Shown here: positions 1,952 through 64,000 of the stretch, in pieces | Position numbering within the stretch: position 1 is the stretch's first letter | Layout of the letters: each line of letters opens with the position of its first letter | Origin: Fasciola hepatica | Taxonomy: Eukaryota > Platyhelminthes > Trematoda > Plagiorchiida > Fasciolidae | DNA: 64,000 bases | NCBI GenBank assembly: GCA_948099385.1 | Contig: CANUEZ040000207.1 | Location: 372,001-436,000 of the forward strand | Reading direction: 5' to 3' | Made by a program: the position numbers and the translations under genes | The notes under the pieces: model-generated | The model's database searches: none | The model's input: the letters and a program-made list of their open reading frames with translations, nothing else | What the model was told of the DNA's origin: nothing

Positions 1952-4900
1952 TGATGCATACATTTAGAAAATATTCATTCTACCTAATTCTTTATTCCGA
2001 TAAAGGACAACTATAACCTGTACTACTGGGCCTTTTGTGCGACTGAAAGACAGACGACCAGATAAACATCGAGGTGGTCATCAAGACAACTGCAAAGTGA
2101 CATAATCAGCGGAAGTTTTGCTCACCTTGGACGAATGAAGTTCATCCTTGAATTGACCTGACTTGATATCGACAGTGAAAGTTGTCAACGTAAAACCTTT
2201 CATGAAACATATTTTGTCCTAAGATAGACACAACTGTACCAAAAGTGCTAGTCAACTCAAAATGATATGAACAGCTGTTTAAACGGCAATATTTGTGCCA
2301 TAAGCATATTTTGGTTTTATTTGGGCGAAATGCCTGCGACCTTCTGGTTTGTTTTTCCATACTTTCTTGTTGTGGCACACCAATTGCCCCGATTGTTTTG
2401 GAATCCCAATGAAACGCTTTGTGTGGGTATTTGGATCAACGGACCGTGAGCTACAGGTATGGGATGAAGAAATGGCTATTTCCAGAGCAGTTTGCGGCAG
2501 TTAAACCTGGTCCTGAAGACAGAAAAATATCTTGAGACCTCCAAGTCGGTCGTGTTGTTCACTGAAATGTCATTTTGCACAATTTTCTGGGTATTCCTTA
2601 GTCGTATTTTTGTTGAAACTCTTGAAAGTTGTCCTGAAGTGGATCCTTTTTAAATCCCAATGTGTTTCCGCGCACGACGGACTGACGGGCCAGTAGTCAA
2701 GTTGTGCTCTAGGAAAACGAACCATTGATCGGTAAGACCATAAATCTGACTTAACTTACATGTCACAGTTATCAAACATCATGTGTAGTAGTTGGTGGGC
2801 AAAACTCTCCATCCATGGGTTCCTGAGAATCTGGTTTTACTCATCTGTAATAAATCGGGTCATTTGTGATGGAAATCATTATTGCGAATTGGATTCATGA
2901 CTGGTAATGGGAAATTTCGTGGGCAGGTAACGAGTGATCACTGTCAAACCCATCAAGTGTCCCTATTAGGAGAACGTTACAGCTGGTCGAATCAACTAAT
3001 ACTTGTGATTCACTTAAACATAAGAAAGATGCAAAAGCGATATTAACAGCTTCACCTGGATTCGAAATTATGTGGACAGTAACATTTCAGTGATGTCGGT
3101 TATCAAATGAAATGTACCTAGGTCTACTGGAGGTTTGTTAGGCATTCGCTGATCTCAGACTTCTACGAGTGGACGCAGCACCGATAATTATCCTGTGCAA
3201 CTCTAAGAAGTGGCCGCTCTGTGTGCGTATGGGATACAAAAAGACTGAAGTCGTCTAGAAATTGGTTTCTTCTGAACCACTTTACCACCTGGTGGATAAA
3301 CTTAAACAACGATGCTGAGATTAGGCGCCAAGCTTTGGCCAAGTGAATCAAATTCCCTCGTCAAACAATAAAATTCAGATTTGTTTCACATTTATTCCGG
3401 GATGGACTCTTCCAACAATGTTTGTTGCGGCGAATGGTAATTTTAAGCCATGTTGGGCTTTCGAACACAGGATAAGTAGAATATTCTCTAAAAACACAAA
3501 CAAAACACTTATCACAACTAGGCATGTTAAGCACATTGGGTTGGGTCCTAAAGATCTGCCTAGCTCTCCTGGATACAACCACTTACAGACAGAGATGAAT
3601 GTTGCACCCAAGGGCCCGCTTGCATTCACACAAACAAACGTTTATGAATTGATGCCACTTACCCTGATTCCTTCCTTGATACTTCCATATTGTCAGTCAT
3701 TTTGTTTTCATTTGAGTACTGAGCTCATGAATAGTAACTGGAACCATCGTACACAGTGCATATTTATTAGCCATTTAAATTGGACGGAATCACCCAAATT
3801 GTCAGCTGTTTTCGCGTAAACCAAATCAACAAGTGACACTGCGGAATATTCATATATTTGAACAGTCAATTCAGAAGACAAACACTCCTGAAAGAATTCC
3901 TTTCATCCTTCTAATACCCAAGTCCCATGGATATCACTTCAGTCACCTTATTCTCTTCAAAAATCCAGTCGTTTGCCTGATGTCATACCTACGTACACGA
4001 CTGATGAGCGTGTACGACAAGAATTTCCTCATTTAGTGTATGTATCCTAACTTGAATGTTCATGTTTGTCACAGTATCTAGGTGTCCAGGCACAATGTGT
4101 ATGCCATCATTTCCGTGTGCTTGCGAGGCGCGGTAATCATCAGGATTATGCATCTTCTTAACATGAAAAAGTTGCATACAACCCACAGGGAACAATTTAG
4201 CCTATTAATTATAGATCATTCTGAGTTGAAGAATTCTATCTTTCAACTTGGACTATCTAAAGTCTTCTCCAACCTCGATGGGTATTACCTAATGACCGAA
4301 ATGGCTGAAGGGTAAACAGTTGTTTTCAAGAATTCCTGACCTTGTTCTGGCTGATCATAATCCACGTGAATGCAGCGTGGTTAACAAGATATTAGCTAGG
4401 TAATGAGTAGTAAGCTCAAAAAAGGGGGCTTTTGTGTTCGTAATTATTATTAGACCAATTGATGGTGGCACTTTATGTATTTGTACGACGCGGCCGTAGC
4501 TTGCGAGCAAACAGCAGACAAGTGCAAGTTATCAGAGTAAAGTCAGTGAAATGCATGTACTAGCACGCATTTACCTTAGGCCAAACATGGTTAGTCGATA
4601 CAAAGTGGGATCAATGGGTCAACGAACATGGTCTGATTAAACATAAACAACCACGAAGATGATGTCGATCGATTTTCCGTGCAGTAGGCGCGACTGATTA
4701 GTCCGGACACAGCAGGAACCATTCCGACAAATTTCCGTTTTACAGCTATAATCTCATCTGAACCGAATAGAGCCTGCATGGGTGAAGTCCATTTTTAGAA
4801 TCACTCAGTGCTCAAGTATAAAGATAATTGGGCTGGAAAGCAAGGACTACGCACACCTGATAAGTGGCAACATCCGCGAAACTAGTCGTGTGCTCCCGGA

Positions 4901-5560
4901 GAAATTTCGTCCTGTCATCCACACACAATACCATACTGTTGATATCAAAACCTTCCGTTTCGAGTATTTTGCATACTGTGTCACTGACGTACTGTTTTTC
5001 CCTCTAGTTCGCTTTGATTTGCTCGCCCAATCCTTCAGGTAGTTATCGCGCCCACCTTAATGTCATTACACAGCTCAAACATTGGTATATAAGCTTGATA
5101 AATTAGGTACTGGATAACCATTCCTTTACTGAAGATAGATCAAACGCAAAATATGTCCCCCTGTCCATACGGACTTTTTATTCTTTCAGCAGCATGAGGA
5201 GCGGACAATCCCGGCTGGAATAAACATGTGGCAGGATAATTCTGCTCCTGAGTGGTCGGCGGTAGTCAGACGGTTATCACTGTGGACTTTGGGCAATAAC
5301 GGCCCGTTTTCCATTCATACCACCTCTTGTCACTTTTTCATTGGGTAGACTTTCATTGATCGCTGCCACCTCCCTGAATTGTTATGAATTGTTGTATAAC
5401 AAACGCATCGGCAGGCAAAAAGAATAGTTGTCAAGTATTTTTCCAAATATATTGTCCCATTTGTGGTTTTAAAGTTATAAGAAGTAAATTATCTAGGGTA
5501 TACAAGTGTATATTCAGAAAATATTTCATGCTGTTTCGTAACAACTTCCGGAGTTTCACT
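1949..5560. other. Long stretch without recognisable gene
   Basis: Open frames of up to 158 codons (for example 3343-3819 plus) have no motif I recognise. They sit over overlapping frames on the other strand, which suggests chance. The only distinct structure noted is a hairpin at 3992-4016. From 3511 onward the sequence is repeated in the right arm with a few base changes that do not favour synonymous positions, so coding is not supported. Confidence 0.5.
3992..4016. repeat. Perfect 8-bp hairpin
   Basis: CGTACACG and its reverse complement CGTGTACG flank a nine-base loop ACTGATGAG. It is perfect in both arms (partner at 63495-63519). Function is unknown; it may be chance. Confidence 0.6.
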
Positions 5561-5569
5561 GCCCTAGAA

Positions 5570-5900
5570 GGGACTACACAAGTAATTATTTGATTTGACT
5601 AGAGTGAACTGGACCATACTAAGAGGAGTTTGAAATATTAACGTTCTCTTCAAAATGGTAGAGTTAGCAAAACATAACAACACATAATAGACTGCCAAAA
5701 CTGGTCTGCTGCTTTCAGTTAGAAGATTTGGCACGTGAGTGGAACCCAAATGCACAGAATTTGGAATATAGTACATGGATTACAAAATAACACATTATGG
5801 GCAGGAAAACGTTGTGAACGAGTCTTTGACACCAGGTAGTGTTTCACAGTCACTTCTAAAGTGCAAGCCTATGTTGGCCCGTCCTATTGGCACAAACATG
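5570..5900 (+). repeat. Dispersed repeat family 2
   Basis: Related in reverse orientation to 28845-29095 and in the same orientation to 1461-1580. The comparison with 28845-29095 shows long interrupted matches: a segment of the form GTGCATTT..G.TCCACTCA..TG.CAAATC.TC, then GTCCAGT..ACT, then GTGTAGTCC/GTGCAGTCC. Identity is perhaps 65-70 percent. This is an old interspersed repeat of unknown class; no transposase or polymerase motif was seen. Confidence 0.55.
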
Positions 5901-6387
5901 GAATGCAGCTTGGAGTAGCCGGCAAAACATTGGACCACCTGAGAGAATTTTCAACATATTCTCCCTACTACCTGAATGTAGGTCATTTTGTGGGCCACAA
6001 AAATTACAGTTTCAACTTCACACGGAATCAGTGGCTACGGGACCTTTAAGTGATGTTTTTCACAAGAAGTAGTAACAAAGCTAACAAAATTATAACAACA
6101 GCACGATGAAAATCACAAGATGCGTAAATCACGCGAATTTCGGATTTGCAGAAAATTCATTGCATCGGTGAGCAATATAATTGTGTGCTTCTGATGAAGA
6201 CTCTGACTGAATGTTTTTAGTATTGTTACACTCGGTCCCAAGTGGAATTATTAACCCTAAAATGAATGTTTATCGATGAACATCCGAGATGAATTGAGTG
6301 AGTGGGAATGCATTCAGTGATTGATTGTGTTGCTCAGATTGAGTAAACATCCACCCCAACTAGTACTCAACAGTTCCAGGTAGCTCA
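5901..6387. other. No recognisable gene; upstream of CAP exon
   Basis: No convincing coding sequence. From about 6320 the text begins to match the region upstream of the spacer CAP exon (37030-37050, minus strand), including a shared GTTGCTCAGATT. The end of this stretch is therefore probably the former 5' flank of the CAP gene. Confidence 0.45.
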
Positions 6388-6563
6388 CATTGGGCGTTTG
6401 CTTTAGTTTGTCTTCTCTTCAATCTACGATAATCAAATTACGAGGAAGAACTGACACTAGATGAATTGAACCAGGGCATGTTGACTTGGCATAACGAGTT
6501 AAGGAAAAGAGTTCTGAACTGTCAACTAAAGGACAACCGAAAGCCAAGATGATGCCACATTTG
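6388..6563 (+). pseudogene. CAP/SCP-TAPS (venom-allergen-like) gene, exon 1, broken
   Basis: CAP-domain proteins are usually secreted, cysteine-rich proteins; in helminths they form large families (VAL/SCP-TAPS). Here the reading ELNQGMLTWHNELRKRVLN carries the family's N-terminal HN.LR.xV helix, with the His codon at 6490-6492. It is followed, after a one-base deletion near 6525, by GQPKAKMMPHL, matching the family's GQP.A..MP.L. The exon ends at a consensus donor TTG|GTGAGT at 6564. Upstream is a hydrophobic stretch (FALVCLLF) that looks like a worn signal peptide, but there is no ATG in place and a TAA follows it. The same exon, better preserved, is in the spacer at 36657-36827. With no start, one stop and one frameshift, this copy cannot make the normal N-terminus. 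Confidence 0.75.
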
Positions 6564-8184
6564 GTGAGTTGAATTTCTGTCAGAATACAATGTCCCATGA
6601 ACCACTATTGACCATTCTATCGTCCCGTCTTGTAATTAGTTATGCTGTATATATTTGACAAATGTAGCTTCATTTCTGAGCAAACTCTTTTCATCTTATA
6701 CTTTTATGTGTGTTATCTATACACACACTGATAGTTTCGGTACCTGGTACCTGGTTTACCTAATCAGTCATCTGGTAGAGTGAACTCAGTATCAGTGTGT
6801 GACTAGGATCCGTGAATGGGGACGCACGTCAAACAGGCGGATGATATTATCATTTGGAATGAGTCAGTACCCGTGAATAAGTACAATTTGGATCAGTCAC
6901 TTCGGCTAGTAGAACTGGTCATGCAACTGAAACCGGGGGGGGACGACAATCACCCATCTGTGTGTTTCAAATGTGGTGCGATTGCTGGTTTCCCTTGAAT
7001 TCGAAATGGAATAGATTTGTCTATCATAGGAGTACACTTGTGAAATGATTTACCAAGCAACATCAACGCTCAGTTCACCATTAAAGATCATCGAAAAATC
7101 GTATTCTCCTCGCTGTTCCCTCCTGATTAGGAATCACCATTATTACTCATAATGAATAAGCAGACAATCTCTGCCAGAAATACTTGTTTCACTTGGGATC
7201 ATGCGAAGGTGGCATTCCTCGTGAGAGTCAACCCAAGTGTGAATGGTCGATTGTTACTGTTCAAAGCCCATGATGGGAGGGCAATTTCTCATTCAGTGTT
7301 GATGCTAAAATACTCTTCTGAATCTCATTAGGGACTCGGAGGATGTGTACCAGTGATGATTCCTGACAAGAATGAAACAACTGCTCCCCCCGAGTTTCCA
7401 GTGATCCGTTGAGGGTGGATTCAGCCTGATGAATCATTTGCCAAATACACGAACCCTCTCCCCCTTATCCTTGCCCACTCCGATCAAAGAACACATTTAC
7501 AAATAGCAGGAGCAGGTAGAGATGAAAAAATCCATTAACTTGGTTCAGAGTGGAATAGATACATAGGGTTTCATAACACACCACCACGAAACCAATTAAA
7601 TGTGCTTAAGAGTTACACTAGAAAGAAGTGGACCATTTACACTTGAGGTATTCACTTGCGCCGGTAGGGAATGCTGAGTCCAAAGTCTTTTCTAAGTAAA
7701 CGGGGGTAAATGACAGCAAATCAACGCACGGGACATGACAGGACACTTGCCAGAACTGAGAGGATTGTGTTGTCAATACATCAAAAGCAGATCTGGTTTA
7801 TTCCGATCATGTGATGTTCTGAGTGAGAGTGACGTACAAATACCTCACAGGCTTCAACACGATCAAGTCGTTTCTGTGCTCATTTAGGCCTCAACCATTT
7901 TCTAGCAATGATGCAGATCGACTAACTATGAGAAACGAAGAGGAAATGTCCTCCCATTTAAAGGAGTTATCACTCACATAATGCTCAGCCAACGGGTCGG
8001 ACAAATCAGATACATCATTTTGGAAAACAGACAAGATAAAGTCAGACATGCACTGTCACACTGAATAGACATTGACGACTGGTACAGAAAAAAGAGAACG
8101 CTCGTTTTGAAATACAGTTGTAATGTTCATTAATGCTACCGTAACATCCGTAGTTAGTAACAACAGAAATCATTCTGCTTTCAG
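6564..8184 (+). other. Former intron 1 of the arm CAP gene
   Basis: Lies between the GTGAGT donor at 6564 and the TTCTGCTTTCAG acceptor ending at 8184. The first part (near 6950-7030) is related to the sequence just downstream of the spacer CAP exon (around 36540-36600, minus), so the duplication included intronic DNA. At 6741-6745 the left arm has 5 bases where the right arm has 139. A run of eight G lies at 6935-6942 (nine in the right arm). A frame at 6816-6998 reads through this stretch but is probably not coding. Confidence 0.6.
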
Positions 8185-8324
8185 ATATGTGATTTTGAAT
8201 TGGCTGCTAAGGCCCAGTCTTGGGTGGACAACTGTAACATGGATTTCAATAAAATCAAAGTTCAGAATACTAAAAATTATCAAACAATGGGTCAAAATGT
8301 TGGCATAAGATTCACATAGGATTT
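8185..8324 (+). pseudogene. CAP/SCP-TAPS gene, exon 2
   Basis: The acceptor TTCTGCTTTCAG ends at 8184. Reading in phase from 8185 gives DFELAAKAQSWVDNCNM and, at codons 35-39, MGQNV. These match two hallmarks of the CAP domain: the ELA..AQ.WA..C helix and the GQN strand. The phase (0) fits the end of exon 1. The frame meets TAG at 8317-8319, just before a good donor GTGAGT at 8325. Either the true donor lay a little upstream (GTTGGCATAAG looks like a decayed GT donor) or the exon is disabled by the stop. In the right arm MGQNV reads LGQNV, a conservative change. Confidence 0.8.
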
Positions 8325-8438
8325 GTGAGTCCAAACACATTTGTCATTCCTTCACTGAATAAACGGTACATGTTAAATGAGCCAGGGTTTTTTCATTTTG
8401 TGCCTAGCCAGAACTGCATTAACACACTATTCCCACAG

Positions 8439-8558
8439 AAACCCGCCCTGTTCCATTCATTCTCCAGTTCAGTGAAAGGATGGGCCTCCGAATATCAGAA
8501 CTACGATTTCTCTCTGAACTCATGCAAAAAGGGTTACGAGTGTGGAGAATACACGAAG
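8439..8558 (+). pseudogene. CAP/SCP-TAPS gene, exon 3
   Basis: Between a CCCACAG acceptor ending at 8438 and a GTAAGA donor at 8559 lie 40 codons in phase 0. They include VKGWASEYQNYDF and CKKGYECGEYTK. These correspond to the CAP signature V..W..E...Y.Y followed by C.....CGHYTQ, where His is replaced by Glu and Gln by Lys. An alternative acceptor TTCTCCAG ends at 8467. The exon itself is open and well preserved. A following exon carrying the VVW...GCG motif was not found with confidence, so the gene looks truncated as well as broken upstream. Confidence 0.82.
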
Positions 8559-11500
8559 GTAAGAAAGCATGCATATATTTTGCAATTTCCCGCACCCTGA
8601 TCACACTTTCTTTTTCACGAGCCCAAAGATAGTGATGGGCACTGAGCTCTTGTAATGGCTGATGGTTCCAGTCCAAAACCGGCGCTGAATAAACGAGGCT
8701 CAGTCCACGAAATCAAATCGAAGGATTCTTCCAGTTGGTGACAGTGGAAAATCACAACTGTTGGTCATGATAGACCGGGTTTGAGGGACTCTCGCTTGAC
8801 GGGTTTTCTTCACGGTTTGATCAAATAACCCATACACAAATCATCTCAGTTATATTTCTGAGCATCAAAAGTTTGTCGTCAGACTCCATCAAGAACAATG
8901 TCAACACTAGGAGACAATGAACAATACCCTGTTGATGCGACTTCATGATGCTTGGGCCAGGGCCTCGCAAATGGTCAAACTACAGTTCTGATGGACGATA
9001 TCTTCACAATTATGTCGACAGCATCCGAATACTGACACTATTTCGTGAATAGAAATTGGATGGGAAATAATCGTTGTTATATACATCCTTTGTCAGAGTG
9101 TCACGAAAACCAACGTGGAAGCAAGCTACTAACTGAGTGAAGGTGCCAAACCGAGTAAGTTTATCAACACGCCTCCAACCACGTATGTTGTTGAGTCAAC
9201 GGTGTGAACATTGAAAAAATCGGTCCTAGTGGACTAAAGAAAAAAGCTCAGTCAAGCAGACCCCACGATGCGAAAATGCCACTGGAAAAGCGGGTCTAAG
9301 TTATTCTTTTTTTCAACAGTTCGTCTTCATGTCATGACAATACATTGTCAACTGTCGTACTGTGTTTTCCCCCTTCTGATTACTGTTAACGGGCGCGTGT
9401 GTTAGGGGCTGCAAGCAGAGCCCGATCACTCAGGTCGTCCGTAGAAAAAGAGATCGTCGAATAGAAACTCAAGGGATCACAGATCCGTTGATCCGGCTTC
9501 GCATTAAGATCAGTCGTACATTATCAAAAGTTTGTCTTTCTATACGCTTACTTCAATTTGTCTTATTGATCTTTATTGCCAAATTACGCATGCGACCCCG
9601 CACTCCTTCCTGTAGTTCTCAGTATATTCCAACTAGCGAAGTGAATATTTTGCATATCAATTTCTTTAGTTTCTCCGGAACAGAGTGATTCTGAAATATG
9701 ACTGTCGACCCATTATGAGCTGATAAATCCAAAAGTTTGTACCTGCATGTCTTCTGATAGACCCTATTTCGTGTCAGTTCAAGTAGTCACGTATACAGTC
9801 AGACAGCCACACACACACACCGTTACTGACTGCCTACTGACTTATGCTTGTAAGCCAACAAGATAAGTTACATGTGCGCACCTGGCATCTGACCGCACCA
9901 TTCATCCAGTCACATTTCTCTAGAAACCGGACAGTCACACATGGCCGTGTCGACTGCATGTGCAGCTTGCGCTTGCTCAGTTTTCCGTACTTGTTTGAGC
10001 GTGCGCCAAAGAACTGTTTTTCGCATTACTAACAATGTCTGAACACAATACCTTAGGTGATCAGTGAAAACAGCAGCCCTTATGATCACCCAACGAGCCT
10101 TTTACCGATATCGGGTAGTGTCGAATGATATCATACTCTATCATCTCTGCAGTCGGAGGTTCCAGTCTTGATGCTTTCGATGAAGCCGGTCGAGGGCAGC
10201 AACACACTACCTAATGGGGTTTGTTAACACACCTTCGTGGCCCTTCGAAATATTCCTCATGCAGTTCTATACTGCTCCAAGTCTGCGGGTCAGGTTGCTG
10301 GTTCTCCATAATGGGACAGTTGTCGTTTGGGACTATGAGCCACGGCTGTTCCGCAACACTCATGCCCATGTTTATAACAAAATATGGCCAATAAGTATGT
10401 CGCGTAATAATGTGTCACGAGGTCGATTGGGTGTCCACGAGCGTTTGGAAATTATCTGTTTCAAATACTAGGCATCGAAAAGAAAACTTCCTTATCACGA
10501 CCGGATTCCAACAACCAACATTCATTGGAACATGTATAATCGGACAACTCGGAAAAATTGCCTTATCACTTCCAATTCACTTGTGTTGACATAAACAAAT
10601 GCCGTCATTCTATTAGTAATTAAACACTCCGTGCGCTTTATGTGTCGAAAATAAAGTATACGAACTCAATAAAATCCGGATTATCTCATGCCCAGACACA
10701 CATACACACACACAAGAAATTCTTCTCGTCACTGTCTTTGAACAGATGGTTTGGGCCAAATCAAAGGCAATAGGATGCCCCAAAAAATGTGCTTTTCTGG
10801 CAATATGATCTTAGATTTGATAATGTGCAATTACGACCCAGCGTAAATTGATTCATGGTACATTATCCGATTCCAATGAACTATTCTGTTGGGTTCAATT
10901 TTCCCCCATCAATTGTGTACCGTGAATGGAATTTGGAGACCTTTCGAGTTATACATGTTTGTAATATCAATCTGCAAACCATCCCGTACAAAACGTAACC
11001 CCTTTAGATATGTAATGACCTGGAGACAATTTTGGTTTCACATGTGAATTCAATAATGAAAGTTATTCCAGACAAACACCACTAATTAGTAATAAATAGG
11101 GGTGTTTCGTATATTGTTCAATGCTACTGAGCTGCTCGTTGTTTGTCCCCTGCCTTTGAAGACCACTGGTTTCCGCCGTTTGAAAAACATCTTTGACAGG
11201 TCTGCTTGTAAATGGATGAATTCTAGCTTCCTCAGATAACCTGATGTCCGATGTTGCTCTAACCTCTAAGCATGATCGACAAGCTGCGTCACATATTGTC
11301 TCTTACCTATCCTAACGAGGTCTTACCGTGGTTTGCGGTCATTGAAACATTTGGCTTGTTACCCGTTACCTAGGTCATTCCGGCAATTTAGTTATTACCT
11401 AGTAATTTGGAGTGATAAAGATATATCATGATCCTTATTGGTATATCTCAGTCAAGCACAAACTAGCTAGTGTCCACAATCACTATTTCTATTTGAATTT

Positions 11501-11585
11501 CGTAGAAGTGAAAAAATAATCAGATCCTGCAGTTCCCCTGATCATGCTTTATCTTGCTGAATTTTCCCAGGGGAAACATTGAAGG
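8559..11585. other. No recognisable gene; small simple repeats
   Basis: Beyond the exon 3 donor no further CAP exon is convincing. A GGTTCCAGTCC motif near 8667 resembles a weak B box and may mark another worn SINE. A CA run lies at about 9808-9820 and another near 10698-10713. Open frames are short and unrecognised. Confidence 0.45.
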
Positions 11586-11910
11586 GGAACGTCCTTACGA
11601 AGTGGACAGGAACGGCGAATGCCCACCACCAGTAAAAAACGACAACGGCGCCCACCACCACCACTAACACAAAAACAACAACGATAAAAAGAACAAGTGC
11701 ATTGATTACCACCACGAATACAACTACTGCTGTGAAGACTACGAAACTGGAAACCACGACAAAACCATACAGTGAAGCACCAACCACTTTAGTGCCAATA
11801 AACAATGCAAGCACCAAATGTGCATCACCCATGTGCTATGCGTCTATCTGGATACAACTGAGCGTAGTCGGGACATGTTGGCTCAAGATATCTCATGATT
11901 TATTGTGACT
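11586..11910 (+). repeat. Thr-coding low-complexity tract
   Basis: A degenerate ACC/ACA/AAC-rich stretch. On the plus strand it reads as Thr-rich peptide (TTTAPTTTTNTKTTT, then TTTNTTTAVKTTKLETTTKP) and runs open to a stop after 11906; on the minus strand it reads as Val-rich. Mucin-like Thr-rich exons look like this, but so do decayed trinucleotide repeats. A TAA at about 11630 interrupts the plus frame. No signal peptide or clear splice sites support a gene. The right arm keeps the frames unchanged. Confidence 0.4.
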
Positions 11911-13189
11911 TGATCCACTCCTGTTCATTTGTTTCAGTGGACTGTCCCCAGTTGATCGATTCTGTTCAGTTTTCAAGTTCTGAAATTATTGTCCCATTTC
12001 TTACTTCGATAACAATAAAAATCGCATGAAAACAGTGAACAAATAGGATCGGGCACGAACACACACGGGCATACGCACACAAGTTTTTCACTTACTGAAC
12101 ATGTTATTCAATCCAAGAGTCCCCCATCAATTTGTCGATTACTCTACATTCCAGCCTATTTCATGCGCACCATCTTATGGTCTCACTCCATGCAGCGGGG
12201 TTTTATTACTTACAATTCATGAGACTATGAAATGATGTGATTCAAACCATGGGCGTTTCCGGAGTTGTTTAGGCCTCGTGAAGCACGAAGCATAACGGAC
12301 TGACCAGAATCACTAATCACATGAACCACTGCATCCGCCAATTACGTGTAAATCAGCTGACAACTGACATTAATTATCATTGGACCAAGTGTGAGCTGGA
12401 TTTTTTTGTTTAGTTAGGACCAAGCTAGTGTGTTTACATGGGGTGTGTGCATCGCATCAGTAATGTACATGTAGATGTTTCCACATGATTTTGTATTGAG
12501 ATCCAAAATAGATAGAGTCTCGGATTCGAAATCGTTGCGTAAAGCGACGATGATCGGTTTTTCAATAAAATATTGTATATTTAAGCAATAAGAAGAGAAT
12601 TTCGGTTTGGGGCTCCATAAAAAATCCGCATAGTATTCTTCGGTCGATACGGAGCTCTATATGATTGCCGACCCGGAGGGGAGCTACCCGTCATCTCCGT
12701 CTTCCTCGAAGTCTCTTTCCCTGGTATATTGTGATAGGAAGTAAAATTTCTTTATTGGTTCTTTCAATTATATCACTAATGGGAATCTGGAAGCTAGTCA
12801 CATCAATACCCAGGGCATTTTTCCCGTCCCTGCTACCTGTCCACTTGACGTGACAATTAATTAATTTCCGTTCAATTTATGACCAAGAGCAAGATTTCAG
12901 TTGAGACACATGCGCCATGGTCCAAGCAACACCAAACGCCGAGGCGCATTCATCTACGGCTTGTATATACCTACTGCACAAGCCTGAATGGTAAACATTC
13001 CATGGATTAGAGTCGAATGAAATGGAGCTCAAAGTGAGGACAAGTTGGGGAAATGTACGTTACCAACAATGGCAGACGTGTGGTTACTGAGGTGTTTAGA
13101 CTTGCACTCTATCACAAAGGTGCTGATGTAAGATATGAAATACGTACAAACAATTTTTGTCGGTATACATCATCGTTCGATTATAGAAG
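11911..13189. other. No recognisable gene
   Basis: Only short unrecognised frames. Several single-base differences from the right arm lie here (for example near 12510, 12628 and 12658). Confidence 0.45.
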
Positions 13190-13400
13190 TGATAACTATT
13201 CCGCAACGTTTGCGTTACGGAGCCGGGCGGTTGATGCGAGAGGAATTGAAATCACCCAGAGTTATCATTTCATCAGCAACATCAGTGTTGATCCGGGTTT
13301 CTTGTAGCAAAATCAAACCCAGTTGATTGTACTGCCGATTATGGACGAAACATGTCAATTTCGCCAACTTTTTAGACAATGATCAAGTAGTTGAAACTTG
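13190..13400 (-). mobile_element. CR1-like LINE endonuclease fragment (inverted)
   Basis: Minus-strand reading gives LGLILLQETRINTDVADEM followed by ITLGDF and RKRCGIVI. The LLQETxI core contains the catalytic Glu of the AP-like endonuclease of CR1/Jockey-type non-LTR retrotransposons. The segment is short and broken by stops. It lies immediately before a reverse transcriptase fragment on the opposite strand (13420-14190), the layout expected when the 5' part of a LINE is inverted on insertion. It could instead be a separate element. Confidence 0.6.
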
Positions 13401-13419
13401 TGACAATTGCTTAGGACAT

Positions 13420-14190: not shown

Positions 14191-14199
14191 CCTAATGGA

Positions 14200-14600
14200 A
14201 ACGATAAGATGAAAAACAAAAGATGACATCAAAATTCCCACTAAATTCTGCCGATAATCGTGCCCGGTTTGTGAGGAATCGGGCTAGATATGGAAAGGTG
14301 AAGTTCTTGTAGATGGTAACACGAGAGGGAATGGATCGAAAGGAAAAACATTAGGAAGTGAGAGGGTTACATTATGGCACATCACTGTGTAAAATGTTAG
14401 AGCAATCTGCAAGGATTTTGTGAGCAAACATTTCACATGCGGCCAGGTGTAGTTCACACAGCTTAGCAGATTTTCGGGTGCGGGTATAAAAGATACTCGA
14501 CCAGTAACAAATAGACCTCGTTGAAGAACTTTAAAATCTTTCATCAGCAGGCCAGAAAATAACCACGGACCAGTAAATAAGGACAGAAAATATATTGATA
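14200..14600 (-). mobile_element. CR1-like LINE 3' end
   Basis: The minus strand reads WLFSGLLMKDFKVLQRG and then an open stretch of some 80 codons ending LPSTRTSPFHI. The GLL.KDFK.L pattern occurs in the same place near the end of the reverse transcriptase ORF of the other CR1-like copies here (GLLLKNFKFI in the 19911-22470 element). It points toward the preceding plus-strand fragment, so two LINE pieces meet tail to tail. In the right arm the frame is broken differently and KDFK is preceded by Lys instead of Met. Confidence 0.55.
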
Positions 14601-38219: not shown

Positions 38220-38279
38220 GGTCACCGTCATTCTGCCCGTTACCACCACTCACTGGTTCTGATTTCACTTGAGCGAGTG

Positions 38280-52775: not shown

Positions 52776-53176
52776 TATCAATATATTTTCTGTCCTTATT
52801 TACTGGTCCGTGGTTATTTTCTGGCCTGCTGAAGAAAGATTTTAAAGTTCTTCAACGAGGTCTATTTGTTACTGGTCGAGTATCTTTTTTACCCGCACCC
52901 GAAAATCTGCTAAGCTGTGTGAACTACACCTGGCCGCATGTGAAATGTTTGCTCACAAAATCCTTGCAGATTGCTCTAACATTTTACACAGTGATGTGCC
53001 ATAATGTAACCCTCTCACTTCTTAATGTTTTTCCTTTCGATCCATTCCCTCTCGTGTTACCATCTACAAGAACTTCCCCTTTCCATATCTAGCCCGATTC
53101 CTCACAAACCGGGCACGATTATCGGCAGAATTTAGTGGGAATTTTGATGTCATCTTTTGTTTTTCATCTTATCGTT
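52776..53176 (+). mobile_element. CR1-like LINE 3' end (right arm)
   Basis: Mirror of 14200-14600. Reads WLFSGLLKKDFKVLQRG, closer to the family pattern than the left copy (Lys rather than Met). A change of ATA to TTT near 52890 and C to T near 53022 also separate the arms. Confidence 0.55.
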
Positions 53177-53185
53177 TCCATTAGG

Positions 53186-53956
53186 TGCAAACTGTAAATC
53201 TTTCTTGACTGAAATGCGGATATCTGTTTATGCAAAAGTCTGAACAGATTACCACATGCAAATACAAATAAGATCGGGATGAAGGGGTTGAGTGCTGTCA
53301 TTCAAGATCGTACGAGAGGAAGCCAGACAAGCGTTGTGCTGTTAGGTCTCGATAAAGTGGATGAGCAGATCGCTAGTGATGCCACTGGGTTGAGATAAAG
53401 GTTGAAGAAACCTGGCGATAATCTTAAAATCCTTGTCAATCATTCCGAGGAATATGAGAGGAAAGGCATAGAACCAGTGGAAAGATGCATCGAAGTACAA
53501 AACATTTAACCAAGTGAAATGCGGTAAAAAAAAGGCTCGTACCTCACCAGTTAGAAGCTGAGTCATCGAACTTTCATAAAGGCACCTGGGATGTGATCTG
53601 TCCAAGTAAGGTCACGGCTGATAGTTACACCGAGGTACTTGACAGGGGGCGCACATTTTATCGGTTCTCCAAGGATGACAATGTTAGGATAGGATACCAT
53701 CAAGTTGAAGCACTGATGGATTTTTTGGGGATCAAACAGTGTATCAAACAACTCTGAGTGATTCGTCCTTAGATTTGGACCGGAAGGCCAGTTGACGAGC
53801 TCAGCTGCTCTTTGTTGTAAAATGGGAAAAGCGGAGCTCCTAGAGTTGGGCATTCCAAAAATCATACCATCGGCGTATTTAACAAGGAGACAATCGTCAT
53901 CGCCTTTACCATCGAGGTGGTTGAAAGTTGAACCAATGAAGCAAGCTTTGTCAATT
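53186..53956 (-). mobile_element. CR1-like reverse transcriptase fragment (right arm)
   Basis: Mirror of 13420-14190. Same YADG and KYLGVTISRDLTWTDH motifs; no difference seen in the frames. Confidence 0.75.
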
Positions 53957-53975
53957 ATGTCCTAAGCAATTGTCA

Positions 53976-54186
53976 CAAGTTTCAACTACTTGATCATTGT
54001 CTAAAAAGTTGGCGAAATTGACATGTTTCGTCCATAATCGGCAGTACAATCAACTGGGTTTGATTTTGCTACAAGAAACCCGGATCAACACTGATGTTGC
54101 TGATGAAATGATAACTCTGGGTGATTTCAATTCCTCTCGCATCAACCGCCCGGCTCCGTAACGCAAACGTTGCGGAATAGTTATCA
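53976..54186 (+). mobile_element. CR1-like endonuclease fragment (right arm)
   Basis: Mirror of 13190-13400. Reads LGLILLQETRINTDVADEM on plus and is again inverted relative to the neighbouring reverse transcriptase. Confidence 0.6.
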
Positions 54187-55465
54187 CTTCTATAATCGAA
54201 CGATGATGTATACCGACAAAAATTGTTTGTACGTATTTCATATCTTACATCAGCACCTTTGTGATAGAGTGCAAGTCTAAACACCTCAGTAACCACACGT
54301 CTGCCATTGTTGGTAACGTACATTTCCCCAACTTGTCCTCACTTTGAGCTCCATTTCATTCGACTCTAATCCATGGAATGTTTACCATTCAGGCTTGTGC
54401 AGTAGGTATATACAAGCCGTAGATGAATGCGCCTCGGCGTTTGGTGTTGCTTGGACCATGGCGCATGTGTCTCAACTGAAATCTTGCTCTTGGTCATAAA
54501 TTGAACGGAAATTAATTAATTGTCACGTCAAGTGGACAGGTAGCAGGGGCGGGAAAAATGCCCTGGGTATTGATGTGACTAGCTTCCAGATTCCCATTAG
54601 TGATATAATTGAAAGAACCAATAAAGAAATTTTACTTCCTATCACAATATACCAGGGAAAGAGACTTCGAGGAAGACGGAGATGACGGGTAGCTCCCCTC
54701 CGGGTCGGCAATCATAGAGAGCTCCGTATCGACCGAAGAATACTATGTGGATTTTTTATGGAGCCCCAAACCGAAATTCTCTTCTTATTGCTTAAATATA
54801 CAATATTTTATTGAAAAACCGATCATCGTCGCTTTACGCAACGATTTCGAATCCGAGACTCTATCTATTTTAGATCTCAATACAAAATCATGTGGAAACA
54901 TCTACATGTACATTACTGATGCGATGCACACACCCCATGTAAACACACTAGCTTGGTCCTAACTAAACAAAAAAATCCAGCTCACACTTGGTCCAATGAT
55001 AATTAATGTCAGTTGTCAGCTGATTTACACGTAATTGGCGGATGCAGTGGTTCATGTGATTAGTGATTCTGGTCAGTCCGTTATGCTTCGTGCTTCACGA
55101 GGCCTAAACAACTCCGGAAACGCCCATGGTTTGAATCACATCATTTCATAGTCTCATGAATTGTAAGTAATAAAACCCCGCTGCATGGAGTGAGACCATA
55201 AGATGGTGCGCATGAAATAGGCTGGAATGTAGAGTAATCGACAAATTGATGGGGGACTCTTGGATTGAATAACATGTTCAGTAAGTGAAAAACTTGTGTG
55301 CGTATGCCCGTGTGTGTTCGTGCCCGATCCTATTTGTTCACTGTTTTCATGCGATTTTTATTGTTATCGAAGTAAGAAATGGGACAATAATTTCAGAACT
55401 TGAAAACTGAACAGAATCGATCAACTGGGGACAGTCCACTGAAACAAATGAACAGGAGTGGATCA
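54187..55465. other. No recognisable gene (right arm)
   Basis: Mirror of 11911-13189. A plus frame at 54747-54962 exists only here because base changes (for example near 54748 and 54870) removed stops present on the left, which argues that the frame is not under constraint. Confidence 0.45.
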
Positions 55466-55790
55466 AGTCACAATAAATCATGAGATATCTTGAGCCAACA
55501 TGTCCCGACTACGCTCAGTTGTATCCAGATAGACGCATAGCACATGGGTGATGCACATTTGGTGCTTGCATTGTTTATTGGCACTAAAGTGGTTGGTGCT
55601 TCACTGTATGGTTTTGTCGTGGTTTCCAGTTTCGTAGTCTTCACAGCAGTAGTTGTATTCGTGGTGGTAATCAATGCACTTGTTCTTTTTATCGTTGTTG
55701 TTTTTGTGTTAGTGGTGGTGGTGGGCGCCGTTGTCGTTTTTTACTGGTGGTGGGCATTCGCCGTTCCTGTCCACTTCGTAAGGACGTTCC
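55466..55790 (-). repeat. Thr-coding low-complexity tract (right arm)
   Basis: Mirror of 11586-11910 with unchanged frames on both strands. Confidence 0.4.
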
Positions 55791-58700
55791 CCTTCAATGT
55801 TTCCCCTGGGAAAATTCAGCAAGATAAAGCATGATCAGGGGAACTGCAGGATCTGATTATTTTTTCACTTCTACGAAATTCAAATAGAAATAGTGATTGT
55901 GGACACTAGCTAGTTTGTGCTTGACTGAGATATACCAATAAGGATCATGATATATCTTTATCACTCCAAATTACTAGGTAATAACTAAATTGCCGGAATG
56001 ACCTAGGTAACGGGTAACAAGCCAAATGTTTCAATGACCGCAAACCACGGTAAGACCTCGTTAGGATAGGTAAGAGACAATATGTGACGCAGCTTGTCGA
56101 TCATGCTTAGAGGTTAGAGCAACATCGGACATCAGGTTATCTGAGGAAGCTAGAATTCATCCATTTACAAGCAGACCTGTCAAAGATGTTTTTCAAACGG
56201 CGGAAACCAGTGGTCTTCAAAGGCAGGGGACAAACAACGAGCAGCTCAGTAGCATTGAACAATATACGAAACACCCCTATTTATTACTAATTAGTGGTGT
56301 TTGTCTGGAATAACTTTCATTATTGAATTCACATGTGAAACCAAAATTGTCTCCAGGTCATTACATATCTAAAGGGGTTACGTTTTGTACGGGATGGTTT
56401 GCAGATTGATATTACAAACATGTATAACTCGAAAGGTCTCCAAATTCCATTCACGGTACACAATTGATGGGGGAAAATTGAACCCAACAGAATAGTTCAT
56501 TGGAATCGGATAATGTACCATGAATCAATTTACGCTGGGTCGTAATTGCACATTATCAAATCTAAGATCATATTGCCAGAAAAGCACATTTTTTGGGGCA
56601 TCCTATTGCCTTTGATTTGGCCCAAACCATCTGTTCAAAGACAGTGACGAGAAGAATTTCTTGTGTGTGTGTATGTGTGTCTGGGCATGAGATAATCCGG
56701 ATTTTATTGAGTTCGTATACTTTATTTTCGACACATAAAGCGCACGGAGTGTTTAATTACTAATAGAATGACGGCATTTGTTTATGTCAACACAAGTGAA
56801 TTGGAAGTGATAAGGCAATTTTTCCGAGTTGTCCGATTATACATGTTCCAATGAATGTTGGTTGTTGGAATCCGGTCGTGATAAGGAAGTTTTCTTTTCG
56901 ATGCCTAGTATTTGAAACAGATAATTTCCAAACGCTCGTGGACACCCAATCGACCTCGTGACACATTATTACGCGACATACTTATTGGCCATATTTTGTT
57001 ATAAACATGGGCATGAGTGTTGCGGAACAGCCGTGGCTCATAGTCCCAAACGACAACTGTCCCATTATGGAGAACCAGCAACCTGACCCGCAGACTTGGA
57101 GCAGTATAGAACTGCATGAGGAATATTTCGAAGGGCCACGAAGGTGTGTTAACAAACCCCATTAGGTAGTGTGTTGCTGCCCTCGACCGGCTTCATCGAA
57201 AGCATCAAGACTGGAACCTCCGACTGCAGAGATGATAGAGTATGATATCATTCGACACTACCCGATATCGGTAAAAGGCTCGTTGGGTGATCATAAGGGC
57301 TGCTGTTTTCACTGATCACCTAGGGTATTGTGTTCAGACATTGTTAGTAATGCGAAAAACAGTTCTTTGGCGCACGCTCAAACAAGTACGGAAAACTGAG
57401 CAAGCGCAAGCCGCACATGCAGTCGACACGGCCATGTGTGACTGTCCGGTTTCTAGAGAAATGTGACTGGATGAATGGTGCGGTCAGATGCCAGGTGCGT
57501 ACATGTAACTTATCTTGTTGGCTTACAAGCATAAGTCAGTAGGCAGTCAGTAACGGTGTGTGTGTGTGGCTGTCTGACTGTATACGTGACTACTTGAACT
57601 GACACGAAATAGGGTCTATCAGAAGACATGCAGGTACAAACTTTTGGATTTATCAGCTCATAATGGGTCGACAGTCATATTTCAGAATCACTCTGTTCCG
57701 GAGAAACTAAAGAAATTGATATGCAAAATATTCACTTCGCTAGTTGGAATATACTGAGAACTACAGGAAGGAGTGCGGGGTCGCATGCGTAATTTGGCAA
57801 TAAAGATCAATAAGACAAATTGAAGTAAGCGTATAGAAAGACAAACTTTTGATAATGTACGACTGATCTTAATGCGAAGCCGGATCAACGGATCTGTGAT
57901 CCCTTGAGTTTCTATTCGACGGGCTCTTTTTCTACGGACGACCTGAGTGATCGGGCTCTGCTTGCAGCCCCTAACACACGCGCCCGTTAACAGTAATCAG
58001 AAGGGGGAAAACACAGTACGACAGTTGACAATGTATTGTCATGACATGAAGACGAACTGTTGAAAAAAAGAATAACTTAGACCCGCTTTTCCAGTGGCAT
58101 TTTCGCATCGTGGGGTCTGCTTGACTGAGCTTTTTTCTTTAGTCCACTAGGACCGATTTTTTCAATGTTCACACCGTTGACTCAACAACATACGTGGTTG
58201 GAGGCGTGTTGATAAACTTACTCGGTTTGGCACCTTCACTCAGTTAGTAGCTTGCTTCCACGTTGGTTTTCGTGACACTCTGACAAAGGATGTATATAAC
58301 AACGATTATTTCCCATCCAATTTCTATTCACGAAATAGTGTCAGTATTCGGATGCTGTCGACATAATTGTGAAGATATCGTCCATCAGAACTGTAGTTTG
58401 ACCATTTGCGAGGCCCTGGCCCAAGCATCATGAAGTCGCATCAACAGGGTATTGTTCATTGTCTCCTAGTGTTGACATTGTTCTTGATGGAGTCTGACGA
58501 CAAACTTTTGATGCTCAGAAATATAACTGAGATGATTTGTGTATGGGTTATTTGATCAAACCGTGAAGAAAACCCGTCAAGCGAGAGTCCCTCAAACCCG
58601 GTCTATCATGACCAACAGTTGTGATTTTCCACTGTCACCAACTGGAAGAATCCTTCGATTTGATTTCGTGGACTGAGCCTCGTTTATTCAGCGCCGGTTT

Positions 58701-58817
58701 TGGACTGGAACCATCAGCCATTACAAGAGCTCAGTGCCCATCACTATCTTTGGGCTCGTGAAAAAGAAAGTGTGATCAGGGTGCGGGAAATTGCAAAATA
58801 TATGCATGCTTTCTTAC
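55791..58817. other. No recognisable gene (right arm)
   Basis: Mirror of 8559-11585. Several substitutions from the left arm, including two adjacent ones at the partner of 9453-9454 (AT on the left, CC when the right arm is read in the same direction). Confidence 0.45.
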
Positions 58818-58937
58818 CTTCGTGTATTCTCCACACTCGTAACCCTTTTTGCATGAGTTCAGAGAGAAATCGTAGTTCTGATATTCGGAGGCCCATCCTT
58901 TCACTGAACTGGAGAATGAATGGAACAGGGCGGGTTT
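58818..58937 (-). pseudogene. CAP/SCP-TAPS gene, exon 3 (right arm)
   Basis: Mirror of 8439-8558. Same 40 codons with VKGWASEYQNYDF and CGEYTK, ending at a GTAAGA donor on minus. No difference from the left copy was noticed. Confidence 0.82.
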
Positions 58938-59051
58938 CTGTGGGAATAGTGTGTTAATGCAGTTCTGGCTAGGCACAAAATGAAAAAACCCTGGCTCATT
59001 TAACATGTACCGTTTATTCAGTGAAGGAATGACAAATGTGTTTGGACTCAC

Positions 59052-59191
59052 AAATCCTATGTGAATCTTATGCCAACATTTTGACCCAATGTTTGATAAT
59101 TTTTAGTATTCTGAACTTTGATTTTATTGAAATCCATGTTACAGTTGTCCACCCAAGACTGGGCCTTAGCAGCCAATTCAAAATCACATAT
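59052..59191 (-). pseudogene. CAP/SCP-TAPS gene, exon 2 (right arm)
   Basis: Mirror of 8185-8324. Same acceptor and ELAAKAQSWVDNC helix. The strand reads LGQNV where the left has MGQNV. The same TAG precedes the GTGAGT donor, so the lesion is shared. Confidence 0.8.
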
Positions 59192-60947
59192 CTGAAAGCA
59201 GAATGATTTCTGTTGTTACTAACTACGGATGTTACGGTAGCATTACTGAACATTACAACTGTATTTCAAAACGAGCGTTCTCTTTTTTCTGTACCAGTCG
59301 TCAATGTCTATTCAGTGTGACAGTGCATGTCTGACTTTATCTTGTCTGTTTTCCAAAATGATGTATCTGATTTGTCCGACCCGTTGGCTGAGCATTATGT
59401 GAGTGATAACTCCTTTAAATGGGAGGACATTTCCTCTTCGTTTCTCATAGTTAGTCGATCTGAATCATTGCTAGAAAATGGTTGAGGCCTAAATGAGCAC
59501 AGAAACGACTTGATCGTGTTGAAGCCTGTGAGGTATTTGTACGTCACTCTCACTCAGAACATCACATGATCGGAATAAACCAGATCTGCTTTTGATGTAT
59601 TGACAACACAATCCTCTCAGTTCTGGCAAGTGTCCTGTCATGTCCCGTGCGTTGATTTGCTGTCATTTACCCCCGTTTACTTAGAAAAGACTTTGGACTC
59701 AGCATTCCCTACCGGCGCAAGTGAATACCTCAAGTGTAAATGGTCCACTTCTTTCTAGTGTAACTCTTAAGCACATTTAATTGGTTTCGTGGTGGTGTGT
59801 TATGAAACCCTATGTATCTATTCCACTCTGAACCAAGTTAATGGATTTTTTCATCTCTACCTGCTCCTGCTATTTGTAAATGTGTTCTTTGATCGGAGTG
59901 GGCAAGGATAAGGGGGAGAGGGTTCGTGTATTTGGCAAATGATTCATCAGGCTGAATCCACCCTCAACGGATCACTGGAAACTCGGGGGGAGCAGTTGTT
60001 TCATTCTTGTCAGGAATCATCACTGGTACACATCCTCCGAGTCCCTAATGAGATTCAGAAGAGTATTTTAGCATCAACACTGAATGAGAAATTGCCCTCC
60101 CATCATGGGCTTTGAACAGTAACAATCGACCATTCACACTTGGGTTGACTCTCACGAGGAATGCCACCTTCGCATGATCCCAAGTGAAACAAGTATTTCT
60201 GGCAGAGATTGTCTGCTTATTCATTATGAGTAATAATGGTGATTCCTAATCAGGAGGGAACAGCAAGGAGAATACGATTTTTCGATGATCTTTAATGGTG
60301 AACTGAGCGTTGATGTTGCTTGGTAAATCATTTCACAAGTGTACTCCTATGATAGACAAATCTATTCCATTTCGAATTCAAGGGAAACCAGCAATCGCAC
60401 CACATTTGAAACACACAGATGGGTGATTGTCGTCCCCCCCCCGGTTTCAGTTGCATGACCAGTTCTACTAGCCGAAGTGACTGATCCAAATTGTACTTAT
60501 TCACGGGTACTGACTCATTCCAAATGATAATATCATCCGCCTGTTTGACGTGCGTCCCCATTCACGGATCCTAGTCACACACTGATACTGAGTTCACTCT
60601 ACCAGATGACTGATTAGATAAACCAGGTACCCAGGAGGACTGGAACAACTCAAAAGAGATGCAAATTTATATTTTCCGTTGATCATAAAAGCAACAAATA
60701 GAGTGCATACCTTGGTAGCGTGCAAAAGAGTTGACCATGTTTCAAAATTTACAAATCAATAGGGTCACCACCGAAACTATCAGTGTGTGTATAGATAACA
60801 CACATAAAAGTATAAGATGAAAAGAGTTTGCTCAGAAATGAAGCTACATTTGTGAAATATATACAGCATAACTAATTACAAGACGGGACGATAGAATGGT
60901 CAATAGTGGTTCATGGGACATTGTATTCTGACAGAAATTCAACTCAC
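59192..60947 (-). other. Former intron 1 of the CAP gene (right arm)
   Basis: Mirror of 6564-8184 but longer by 134 bases net. Positions 60632-60770 (139 bases) are absent from the left arm. The nine-C run at 60434-60442 keeps a 77-codon minus frame (60328-60561) open that is cut on the left by the one-base shorter run; this is more likely coincidence than coding. Confidence 0.6.
60632..60770. other. 139-bp segment missing from left arm
   Basis: Flanked by AACCAGGTACC and CCGAAACTATCAG, which in the left arm are separated by only five bases (AGGTA on this strand). The left arm thereby has GGTACC twice in close succession. The segment has no terminal repeats or target-site duplication, so a deletion in the left arm with short filler fits better than a transposon insertion on the right. 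Confidence 0.85.
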
Positions 60948-61123
60948 CAAATGTGGCATCATCTTGGCTTTCGGTTGTCCTTTAGTTGACAGTTCAGAAC
61001 TCTTTTCCTTAACTCGTTATGCCAAGTCAACATGCCCTGGTTCAATTCATCTAGTGTCAGTTCTTCCTCGTAATTTGATTATCGTAGATTGAAGAGAAGA
61101 CAAACTAAAGCAAACGCCCAATG
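60948..61123 (-). pseudogene. CAP/SCP-TAPS gene, exon 1, broken (right arm)
   Basis: Mirror of 6388-6563. Same missing start, in-frame stop after the hydrophobic stretch, one-base deletion and donor. Shared lesions place the loss of function before the arms separated, or reflect conversion between arms. Confidence 0.75.
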
Positions 61124-61610
61124 TGAGCTACCTGGAACTGTTGAGTCATAGTTGGGGTGGATGTTTACTCAATCTGAGCAACACAATCAATCACTGAATG
61201 CATTCCCACTCACTCAATTCATCTCGGATGTTCATCGATAAACATTCATTTTAGGGTTAATAATTCCACTTGGGACCGAGTGTAACAATACTAAAAACAT
61301 TCAGTCAGAGTCTTCATCAGAAGCACACAATTATATTGCTCACCGATGCAATGAATTTTCTGCAAATCCGAAATTCGCGTGATTTACGCATCTTGTGATT
61401 TTCATCGTGCTGTTGTTATAATTTTGTTAGCTTTGTTACTACTTCTTGTGAAAAACATCGCTTAAAGGTCCCGTAGCCACTGATTCCGTGTGAAGTTGAA
61501 ACTGTAATTTTTGTGGCCCACAAAATGACCTACATTCAGGTAGTAGGGAGAATATGTTGAAAATTCTCTCAGGTGGTCCAATGTTTTGCCGGCTACTCCA
61601 AGCTGCATTC

Positions 61611-61941
61611 CATGTTTGTGCCAATAGGACGGGCCAGCATAGGCTTGCACTTTAGAAGTGACTGTGAAACACTACCTGGTGTCAAAGACTCGTTCACAAC
61701 GTTTTCCTGCCCATAATGTGTTATTTTGTAATCCATGTACTATATTCCAAATTCTGTGCATTTGGGTTCCACTCACGTGCCAAATCTTCTAACTGAAAGC
61801 AGCAGACCAGTTTTGGCAGTCTATTATGTGTTGTTATGTTTTGCTAACTCTACCATTTTGAAGAGAACGTTAATATTTCAAACTCCTCTTAGTATGGTCC
61901 AGTTCACTCTAGTCAAATCAAATAATTACTTGTGTAGTCCC
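61611..61941 (-). repeat. Dispersed repeat family 2 (right arm)
   Basis: Mirror of 5570-5900, with at least one difference (Val to Ala in an overlapping minus frame near 61635). Confidence 0.55.
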
Positions 61942-64000
61942 TTCTAGGGCAGTGAAACTCCGGAAGTTGTTACGAAACAGCATGAAATATTTTCTGAATA
62001 TACACTTGTATACCGTAGATAATTTACTTCTTATAACTTTAAAACCACAAATGGGACAATATATTTGGAAAAATACTTGACAACTATTCTTTTTGCCTGC
62101 CGATGCGTTTGTTATACAACAATTCATAACAATTCAGGGAGGTGGCAGCGATCAATGAAAGTCTACCCAATGAAAAAGTGACAAGAGGTGGTATGAATGG
62201 AAAACGGGCCGTTATTGCCCAAAGTCCACAGTGATAACCGTCTGACTACCGCCGACCACTCAGGAGCAGAATTATCCTGCCACATGTTTATTCCAGCCGG
62301 GATTGTCCGCTCCTCATGCTGCTGAAAGAATAAAAAGTCCGTATGGACAGGGGGACATATTTTGCGTTTGATCTATCTTCAGTAAAGGAATGGTTATCCA
62401 GTACCTAATTTATCAAGCTTATATACCAATGTTTGAGCTGTGTAATGACATTAAGGTGGGCGCGATAACTACCTGAAGGATTGGGCGAGCAAATCAAAGC
62501 GAACTAGAGTGAAAAACAGTACGTCAGTGACACAGTATGCAAAATACTCGAAACGGAAGGTTTTGATATCAACAGTATGGTATTGTGTGTGGATGACAGG
62601 ACGAAATTTCTCCGGGAGCACACGACTAGTTTCGCGGATGTTGCCACTTATCAGGTGTGCGTAGTCCTTGCTTTCCAGCCCAATTATCTTTATACTTGAG
62701 CACTGAGTGATTCTAAAAATGGACTTCACCCATGCAGGCTCTATTCGGTTCAGATGAGATTATAGCTGTAAAACGGAAATTTGTCGGAATGGTTCCTGCT
62801 GTGTCCGGACTAATCAGTCGCGCCTACTGCACGGAAAATCGATCGACATCATCTTCGTGGTTGTTTATGTTTAATCAGACCATGTTCGTTGACCCATTGA
62901 TCCCACTTTGTATCGACTAACCATGTTTGGCCTAAGGTAAATGCGTGCTAGTACATGCATTTCACTGACTTTACTCTGATAACTTGCACTTGTCTGCTGT
63001 TTGCTCGCAAGCTACGGCCGCGTCGTACAAATACATAAAGTGCCACCATCAATTGGTCTAATAATAATTACGAACACAAAAGCCCCCTTTTTTGAGCTTA
63101 CTACTCATTACCTAGCTAATATCTTGTTAACCACGCTGCATTCACGTGGATTATGATCAGCCAGAACAAGGTCAGGAATTCTTGAAAACAACTGTTTACC
63201 CTTCAGCCATTTCGGTCATTAGGTAATACCCATCGAGGTTGGAGAAGACTTTAGATAGTCCAAGTTGAAAGATAGAATTCTTCAACTCAGAATGATCTAT
63301 AATTAATAGGCTAAATTGTTCCCTGTGGGTTGTATGCAACTTTTTCATGTTAAGAAGATGCATAATCCTGATGATTACCGCGCCTCGCAAGCACACGGAA
63401 ATGATGGCATACACATTGTGCCTGGACACCTAGATACTGTGACAAACATGAACATTCAAGTTAGGATACATACACTAAATGAGGAAATTCTTGTCGTACA
63501 CGCTCATCAGTCGTGTACGTAGGTATGACATCAGGCAAACGACTGGATTTTTGAAGAGAATAAGGTGACTGAAGTGATATCCATGGGACTTGGGTATTAG
63601 AAGGATGAAAGGAATTCTTTCAGGAGTGTTTGTCTTCTGAATTGACTGTTCAAATATATGAATATTCCGCAGTGTCACTTGTTGATTTGGTTTACGCGAA
63701 AACAGCTGACAATTTGGGTGATTCCGTCCAATTTAAATGGCTAATAAATATGCACTGTGTACGATGGTTCCAGTTACTATTCATGAGCTCAGTACTCAAA
63801 TGAAAACAAAATGACTGACAATATGGAAGTATCAAGGAAGGAATCAGGGTAAGTGGCATCAATTCATAAACGTTTGTTTGTGTGAATGCAAGCGGGCCCT
63901 TGGGTGCAACATTCATCTCTGTCTGTAAGTGGTTGTATCCAGGAGAGCTAGGCAGATCTTTAGGACCCAACCCAATGTGCTTAACATGCCTAGTTGTGAT
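61942..64000. other. No recognisable gene (right arm end)
   Basis: Mirror of 3511-5569, including the 8-bp hairpin at 63495-63519. Sequence is cut by the window edge. Confidence 0.5.

Follow-up and report, generated by a model that had tools for sequence, protein, structure and literature searches.

The 64,000-bp stretch analyzed here (the window; C207:372001-436000) lies on a contig, C207, of an assembly comprising 1,499,821,164 bases in 656 contigs, and is occupied by one large palindrome, i.e., two inverted arms around a spacer of 9,064 bp (Table 1). Self-comparison aligned 6743-29155 with the reverse complement of 38220-60635 (22,417 columns, 99.835% identity, 32 mismatches, 4 gap openings) and 3511-6741 with 60770-64000 (3,231 columns, 99.783% identity, 7 mismatches, no gaps), leaving an arm divergence of 39 mismatches in 25.6 kb (0.15%) in a window without a single N. 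Chance cannot account for arm matches of this length. An earlier note on this DNA had described the recurrence of 3511-29155 in inverted form at 38220-64000 with very high identity around a spacer of about 9 kb, which our comparison confirms at 99.8%, whereas the outer positions given there, 3511 and 64000, are no borders but edges of the window. The whole of 1-29155 is arm: the 4.5 kb following the window pair with 1-3510, and once they are added 1-6741 also pairs with the right side, at 99.5%. Moreover, a 3.5-kb marker taken from C207:331 kb recurs on both sides, at C207:353,989-357,485 (minus strand) and 454,003-457,623 (plus strand), so that each arm would span about 47 kb or more when counted from the inner borders to the marker, bridging the stretches between the pieces read. 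Thus, the arms are inverted and at least 99% identical over tens of kilobases, as in ampliconic palindromes, and the spacer is not itself duplicated within the palindrome except for one notable self-match, of 34055-34284 with each arm (242 columns, 85%). Since it is found intact elsewhere on C207 (Table 1), the 134-bp segment missing from the left arm is read as having been lost there.

Comparison of the window with C207:150-350 kb (264 kb in total, again without N) placed this palindrome in an array. Within 240 kb, C207 carries at least three near-identical palindromes, linked by two more mirror points and lying amid older copies of 70-96% identity, and in the sequence compared we counted at least six arm copies and three near-identical spacers. 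The two sister palindromes are located in C207:195-316 kb, and their pieces are 99.55-99.95% alike to the window. A mirror, M1, joins the sister palindromes 1 and 2 head to head (centre at approximately 251.15 kb, joint at approximately 251.51 kb), while a second, mirror Q, at approximately 344.24 kb and with a spacer of approximately 9.1 kb, relates palindrome 2 to that of the window, pairing 338489-339675 with 350000-348814 at 99.8% (the block read stops at 350000) and 331085-331984, at 100%, with 357400-356501. The relation of palindrome 2 to the window palindrome can be described through mirror Q or, equally, as a direct shift of approximately 123 kb. A search with the spacer piece 30000-37000 returned at least 77 matches including the window itself, 73 of them in C207 and ranging from 100% to 70% identity, counts that are a floor as 40 of 993 candidates were scored. 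The first 3.65 kb of the spacer also occur as inverted pairs at two older places, 2.328/2.350 Mb and 0.839/0.857 Mb. The first of these pairs belongs to a further palindrome, at C207 2.327-2.356 Mb, 1.9 Mb from the window; since its arms are 99.746% alike over the 5,901 bp read, yet only approximately 89% like the window, palindromes arose, or became homogenised, more than once. The older part of the array also contains, at C207:154477-154648, a pure (TA)n tract of 172 bp, which exceeds all others in the sequence searched for such tracts. Both C207 (2,841,000 bp) and contig C47 (56,745,000 bp) have lengths divisible by 1,000, as would result from a scaffolder's cuts, and C207 may originally have belonged to a longer contig.

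Table 1. Features of the window (window positions; coordinates on the contig are marked C207).
Feature	Position	Strand	Remarks
Left arm, part within the window, running on leftward	1..29155	+	Pairs with 38220-64000 and, beyond the window, with C207:436001-439486
(TA)n tract	1886..1948		At mirror M1 (C207, approximately 251.51 kb) joined to window position 2592, inverted
Difference-free left-arm stretch adjoining the spacer	21622..29112		Run of 7,492 bp; none of 20,000 random placements as long
Left inner joint	29155..29156		Read as derived; 553-kb copy carries other sequence here
Spacer, 9,064 bp	29156..38219		Two further near-identical copies in C207: 215043-224107 (-), 278166-287237 (+)
Spacer kilobase with 18 differences private to the window copy among the three near-identical spacers	31156..32155		5-6 of the 18 common with each of three older copies
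Right inner joint	38219..38220		Read as ancestral; right-arm start after the spacer also in the 553-kb and 2,720-kb copies
Right arm	38220..64000	-	Read as far as C207:440,500 at least; matched by the marker up to 457,623
134-bp segment without counterpart in the left arm (gap after 6741)	60636..60769		100% identity at three places in C207:150-350 kb

The joints indicate how such structures may have formed. At M1 the sequence descends to the (TA)n tract (60 bp) and then resumes in inverted orientation, so that M1 looks like a fold-back with a loop of approximately 0.7 kb. For the palindrome with the 9-kb spacer, the copies found at 553 kb and at 2,720 kb both have the right arm starting after the spacer, and the 0.66 and 1.17 kb to their left contain no left arm; on this basis we read the left inner joint as derived and the right one as ancestral. 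The 553-kb copy (96-98% identity) furthermore contains, approximately 273 bp from its own border and within the 0.66 kb examined, a 29-bp exact inverted repeat of 29158-29186 that could form a hairpin.

Exchange between copies was analyzed in six arms of 19.9 kb each from this one assembly, which differ at 138 two-state sites (78 transitions and 60 transversions). The four-gamete test was failed by 591 of 1,540 pairs of informative sites, and neighbouring sites agreed more than in shuffles, adjacent pairs being incompatible in 13 of 55 cases compared to a shuffle mean of 21.1 (as low in 23 of 5,000 shuffles). These site patterns point to sequence exchange between arms or copies. The two window arms are the closest of all 15 arm pairs, with 27 mismatches in 19.9 kb compared to 44-73 for the others. 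Among the spacers, 22 of the 25 differences private to the 278-kb copy within its first 2 kb are common with the 553-kb copy, as compared to none of seven elsewhere, suggesting that one tract was exchanged, in either direction, between these two copies or their relatives. The spacers are more diverged (0.47-0.73%) than the arms (0.22-0.37%), the direction that conversion predicts; as proof of conversion, this gap is weakened by the clustering described below. At a rate of 1.73e-9, which appears in a legend of PMC8519440 and is here taken as per site per year, the arm divergence of 0.15% corresponds to roughly 0.4 million years, which is a minimum age because conversion acts between the arms.

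The earlier note had not decided between a genuine palindrome and two misjoined haplotypes, and the sequence favours the former, although membership of an array and arms reaching past the window could not be seen there. An assembly error appears unlikely to us, whether two haplotypes fused head to head or a tangle of repeats traversed several times. The arm divergence would suit allelic variation, considering that PMC8519440 lists 'Heterozygosity Rate (%) 1.9 x 10^-3' for F. gigantica (0.19% if a fraction, 0.0019% if literal), and the exact length of C207 looks as though it had been cut in 1-kb steps. In contrast, a single misjoin would yield no more than two arm copies and no separate joints, while at least six arms and three spacers stand in one contig with no N in the sequence compared, the arm differences include the loss of the 134-bp segment from one arm, more than half of the two-state sites (78 of 138) are transitions, and a separate palindrome lies 1.9 Mb away; one simple misjoin cannot produce all these features. 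Together with the ladder of divergence among the copies and the mosaic site patterns that suggest exchange between them, this makes a simple haplotype misjoin unlikely, while a tangle with a wrong copy number is still compatible with the data.

We therefore consider it probable that the window contains a genuine, locally evolving member of an ampliconic palindrome array on C207. Several observations weigh against this reading. The number of arms stems from the C207 stretches compared and is not a genome-wide count, and the assembler may have produced a wrong copy number or order; the mosaic patterns could likewise derive in part from phase switches. Neither of the other two palindromes has arms that are mutual closest relatives (70 mismatches in the first and 59 in the second), so that conversion within a palindrome would not be uniform, and two 1-kb clusters hold much of the excess divergence of the spacers, with p > 0.05 in 3 of 12 comparisons. 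No GC excess was found in the arms (0.4107 vs 0.4105), contrary to strong conversion. Finally, no microhomology was seen at the joint of the 9-kb palindrome by inspection of its letters, and the proposed fold-back step has one clear joint, M1, behind it.

A variant within this explanation, to which we give slightly less than an even chance, is a direct duplication of a palindromic unit of approximately 123 kb with no later inversion, mirror Q then being a seam. The two estimates overlap and do not sum to one, as the direct duplication is a version of the genuine array. It accords with the direct match of 251.5-334.5 kb to 374.6-457.6 kb, at shifts of 122,981 to 123,082 bp, and with the same orientation of the second and the window spacers. 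We considered whether recombination between arms had flipped a spacer and set the orientation of spacers 2 and 3, and make no such claim since the direct duplication explains the same fact. On its own, however, direct duplication fails to account for right arm 2 being equally near left arm 3 (44 mismatches) and right arm 3 (45), and for the left arms differing by 63, indicating that conversion would still be needed.

The scans for genes gave no convincing candidate. Among 10 open reading frames (ORFs) of the window, Pfam returned two families, with E-values of 0.022 and 0.033 and both under their cut-offs, and among 150 of the 157 listed ORFs of at least 62 aa in window 1-38300 (seven being dropped as low in complexity, overlapping or already scanned) it returned four families with one member each, none convincing (best E 0.0011). 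In the neighbouring sequence (C207:150-200 and 310-350 kb), 235 ORFs were listed, and the 142 of them that were scanned likewise gave four single-member families (best E 0.00072), which we treated as chance. Neither Rfam at gathering scores nor a tRNA search had a hit in the window, and coding-type substitution between the window and its diverged copies was not clear in any of 158 stretches (best third-position share 0.56). These scans, which covered the arms as far as they lie within the window and which short exons could escape, thus identified no gene in the window. Some frames, e.g., 13415-13810 and 21862-22479, resembled worn pieces of long interspersed nuclear elements by eye, a resemblance unsupported by Pfam. 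GAT-rich short tandem repeats occur in both arms (window 27445-27527) within a reading frame that has an acidic end.

Outside the window, an exon of the wider unit at C207:331 kb weakly resembles the start of a venom allergen-like (SCP/TAPS) protein: it has no Pfam domain, its best solved structure is SmVAL4 (E 0.071) and one unnamed protein matches at E 1.2e-17. The first-exon region recurs at at least 13 places in C207 and at one place in C47, a 56.7-Mb contig whose copy is 78% identical, which raises the possibility that the array is kept because the dosage of a secreted venom-allergen-like gene is under selection. The 12 copies read for comparison (with the 454-kb copy left out) show more synonymous than non-synonymous change against the C47 copy (0.32-0.40 vs 0.07-0.12, 11 comparisons), as selection for dosage would have it. 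Among the C207 copies, in contrast, the difference is weak (0.00-0.13 synonymous and 0.02-0.07 non-synonymous against the 331-kb copy), and although the frame is kept in 10 of the 12, two are frameshifted and the expected splice donor, kept in eight, is missing in four, including the young 331-kb copy, to which the 357-kb stretch is identical across 900 bp. A motif search of C207:150-350 kb for later exons gave nine matches, none convincing, and we regard the dosage explanation as highly doubtful. A genome scan with PF00188 found six weak places, none in C207, and since it missed the 331-kb exon it is uninformative on the size of the family. The last 0.3 kb of the marker are approximately 80% identical to a dispersed repeat found at C96:2,013-2,021 kb, there in tandem about every 451 bp, and at C326:89-121 kb.

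The assembly itself shows the palindrome and its sisters, the mirror joints, the older and more diverged copies and the mosaic of sites that copies share; the mechanism of their origin we infer. A broken or stalled DNA end may have folded onto itself, using a short inverted repeat or a (TA)n tract, and been copied, giving an inverted duplication, after which unequal or inverted recombination between copies would have multiplied the units. Gene conversion, both from arm to arm and from unit to unit, would then maintain their likeness. The latest rounds probably proceeded without the drive of an intact gene, given that the arms yielded no gene and that the exon of the wider unit is without its expected splice donor in the young copies read.

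The GC content of the window (approximately 41%) agrees with the 42% given for F. hepatica in PMC9904461. The cox1 gene of the assembly can be translated without interruption using the flatworm mitochondrial code, and 484 of its 513 residues equal those of Fasciola gigantica, the best among 120 proteins listed, which identifies the organism as a fasciolid fluke. Mitochondrial genomes occur as head-to-tail copies on seven contigs (C429, C468, C471, C552, C560, C583, and C600), and the distances from cox1 to cox1 take nine distinct values, eight differing from 14,204 by a whole number of 85-bp steps and the ninth being 14,899; this stepping suggests a repeat built of 85-bp units in variable copy number. 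Fasciolids are hermaphrodites, and we know of no sex chromosomes among them. The comparison with sex chromosomes drawn in the earlier note therefore holds for form alone: the form is that of an ampliconic region of a sex chromosome, while the arms, in the scans made, do not have the gene content of that class. A sex-chromosome reading is not claimed, the host being hermaphroditic and C207 without chromosomal placement.

Unlike in human Y palindromes, the arm scans yielded no gene, the arms have no GC excess and no sex chromosome is known to us in the family. Human Y palindromes including P6 (PMC3723533) are similar in having long inverted arms more than 99% alike around a unique spacer, and clean multi-kilobase tracts are common to both (7.5 kb here; longest inferred minimum tract of 9,023 bp in P6), whereas the arm divergence is 0.15% here and approximately 0.02% in P6. 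The palindromes of the willow W (PMC7023750) also comprise two consecutive palindromes with stretches of approximately 20 kb common to four arms and evidence of gene conversion, but unlike those on C207 they sit in the sex-determining region and carry genes. Fold-back inversions via single-strand hairpins in yeast (PMC7467729) share the inverted duplication and the loop between the arms; in contrast to these, only M1 displays a fold-back directly, and the result on C207 is inherited and many times repeated. No fluke palindrome array appeared among the titles and abstract openings listed in literature searches on Fasciola duplications and on trematode/flatworm and autosomal palindromes, which covered few subscription papers and leave room for such a report.

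It is quite improbable, in our estimation, that C207 is a segment of a hermaphrodite genome resembling a sex-limited chromosome, that is, megabase-scale, ampliconic and palindromic, with repeats largely confined to it and homogenised by conversion; such a contig could represent a non-recombining block, a supernumerary chromosome or a driving element. Large palindromes homogenised by conversion are usually attributed to Y and W chromosomes having no partner to recombine with. A similarly shaped array in a hermaphrodite, whose arms yielded no gene where scanned, would set the formation and persistence of palindromes apart from the reasons for their retention on sex chromosomes, and would mark a rapidly changing region in the genome of this parasite.

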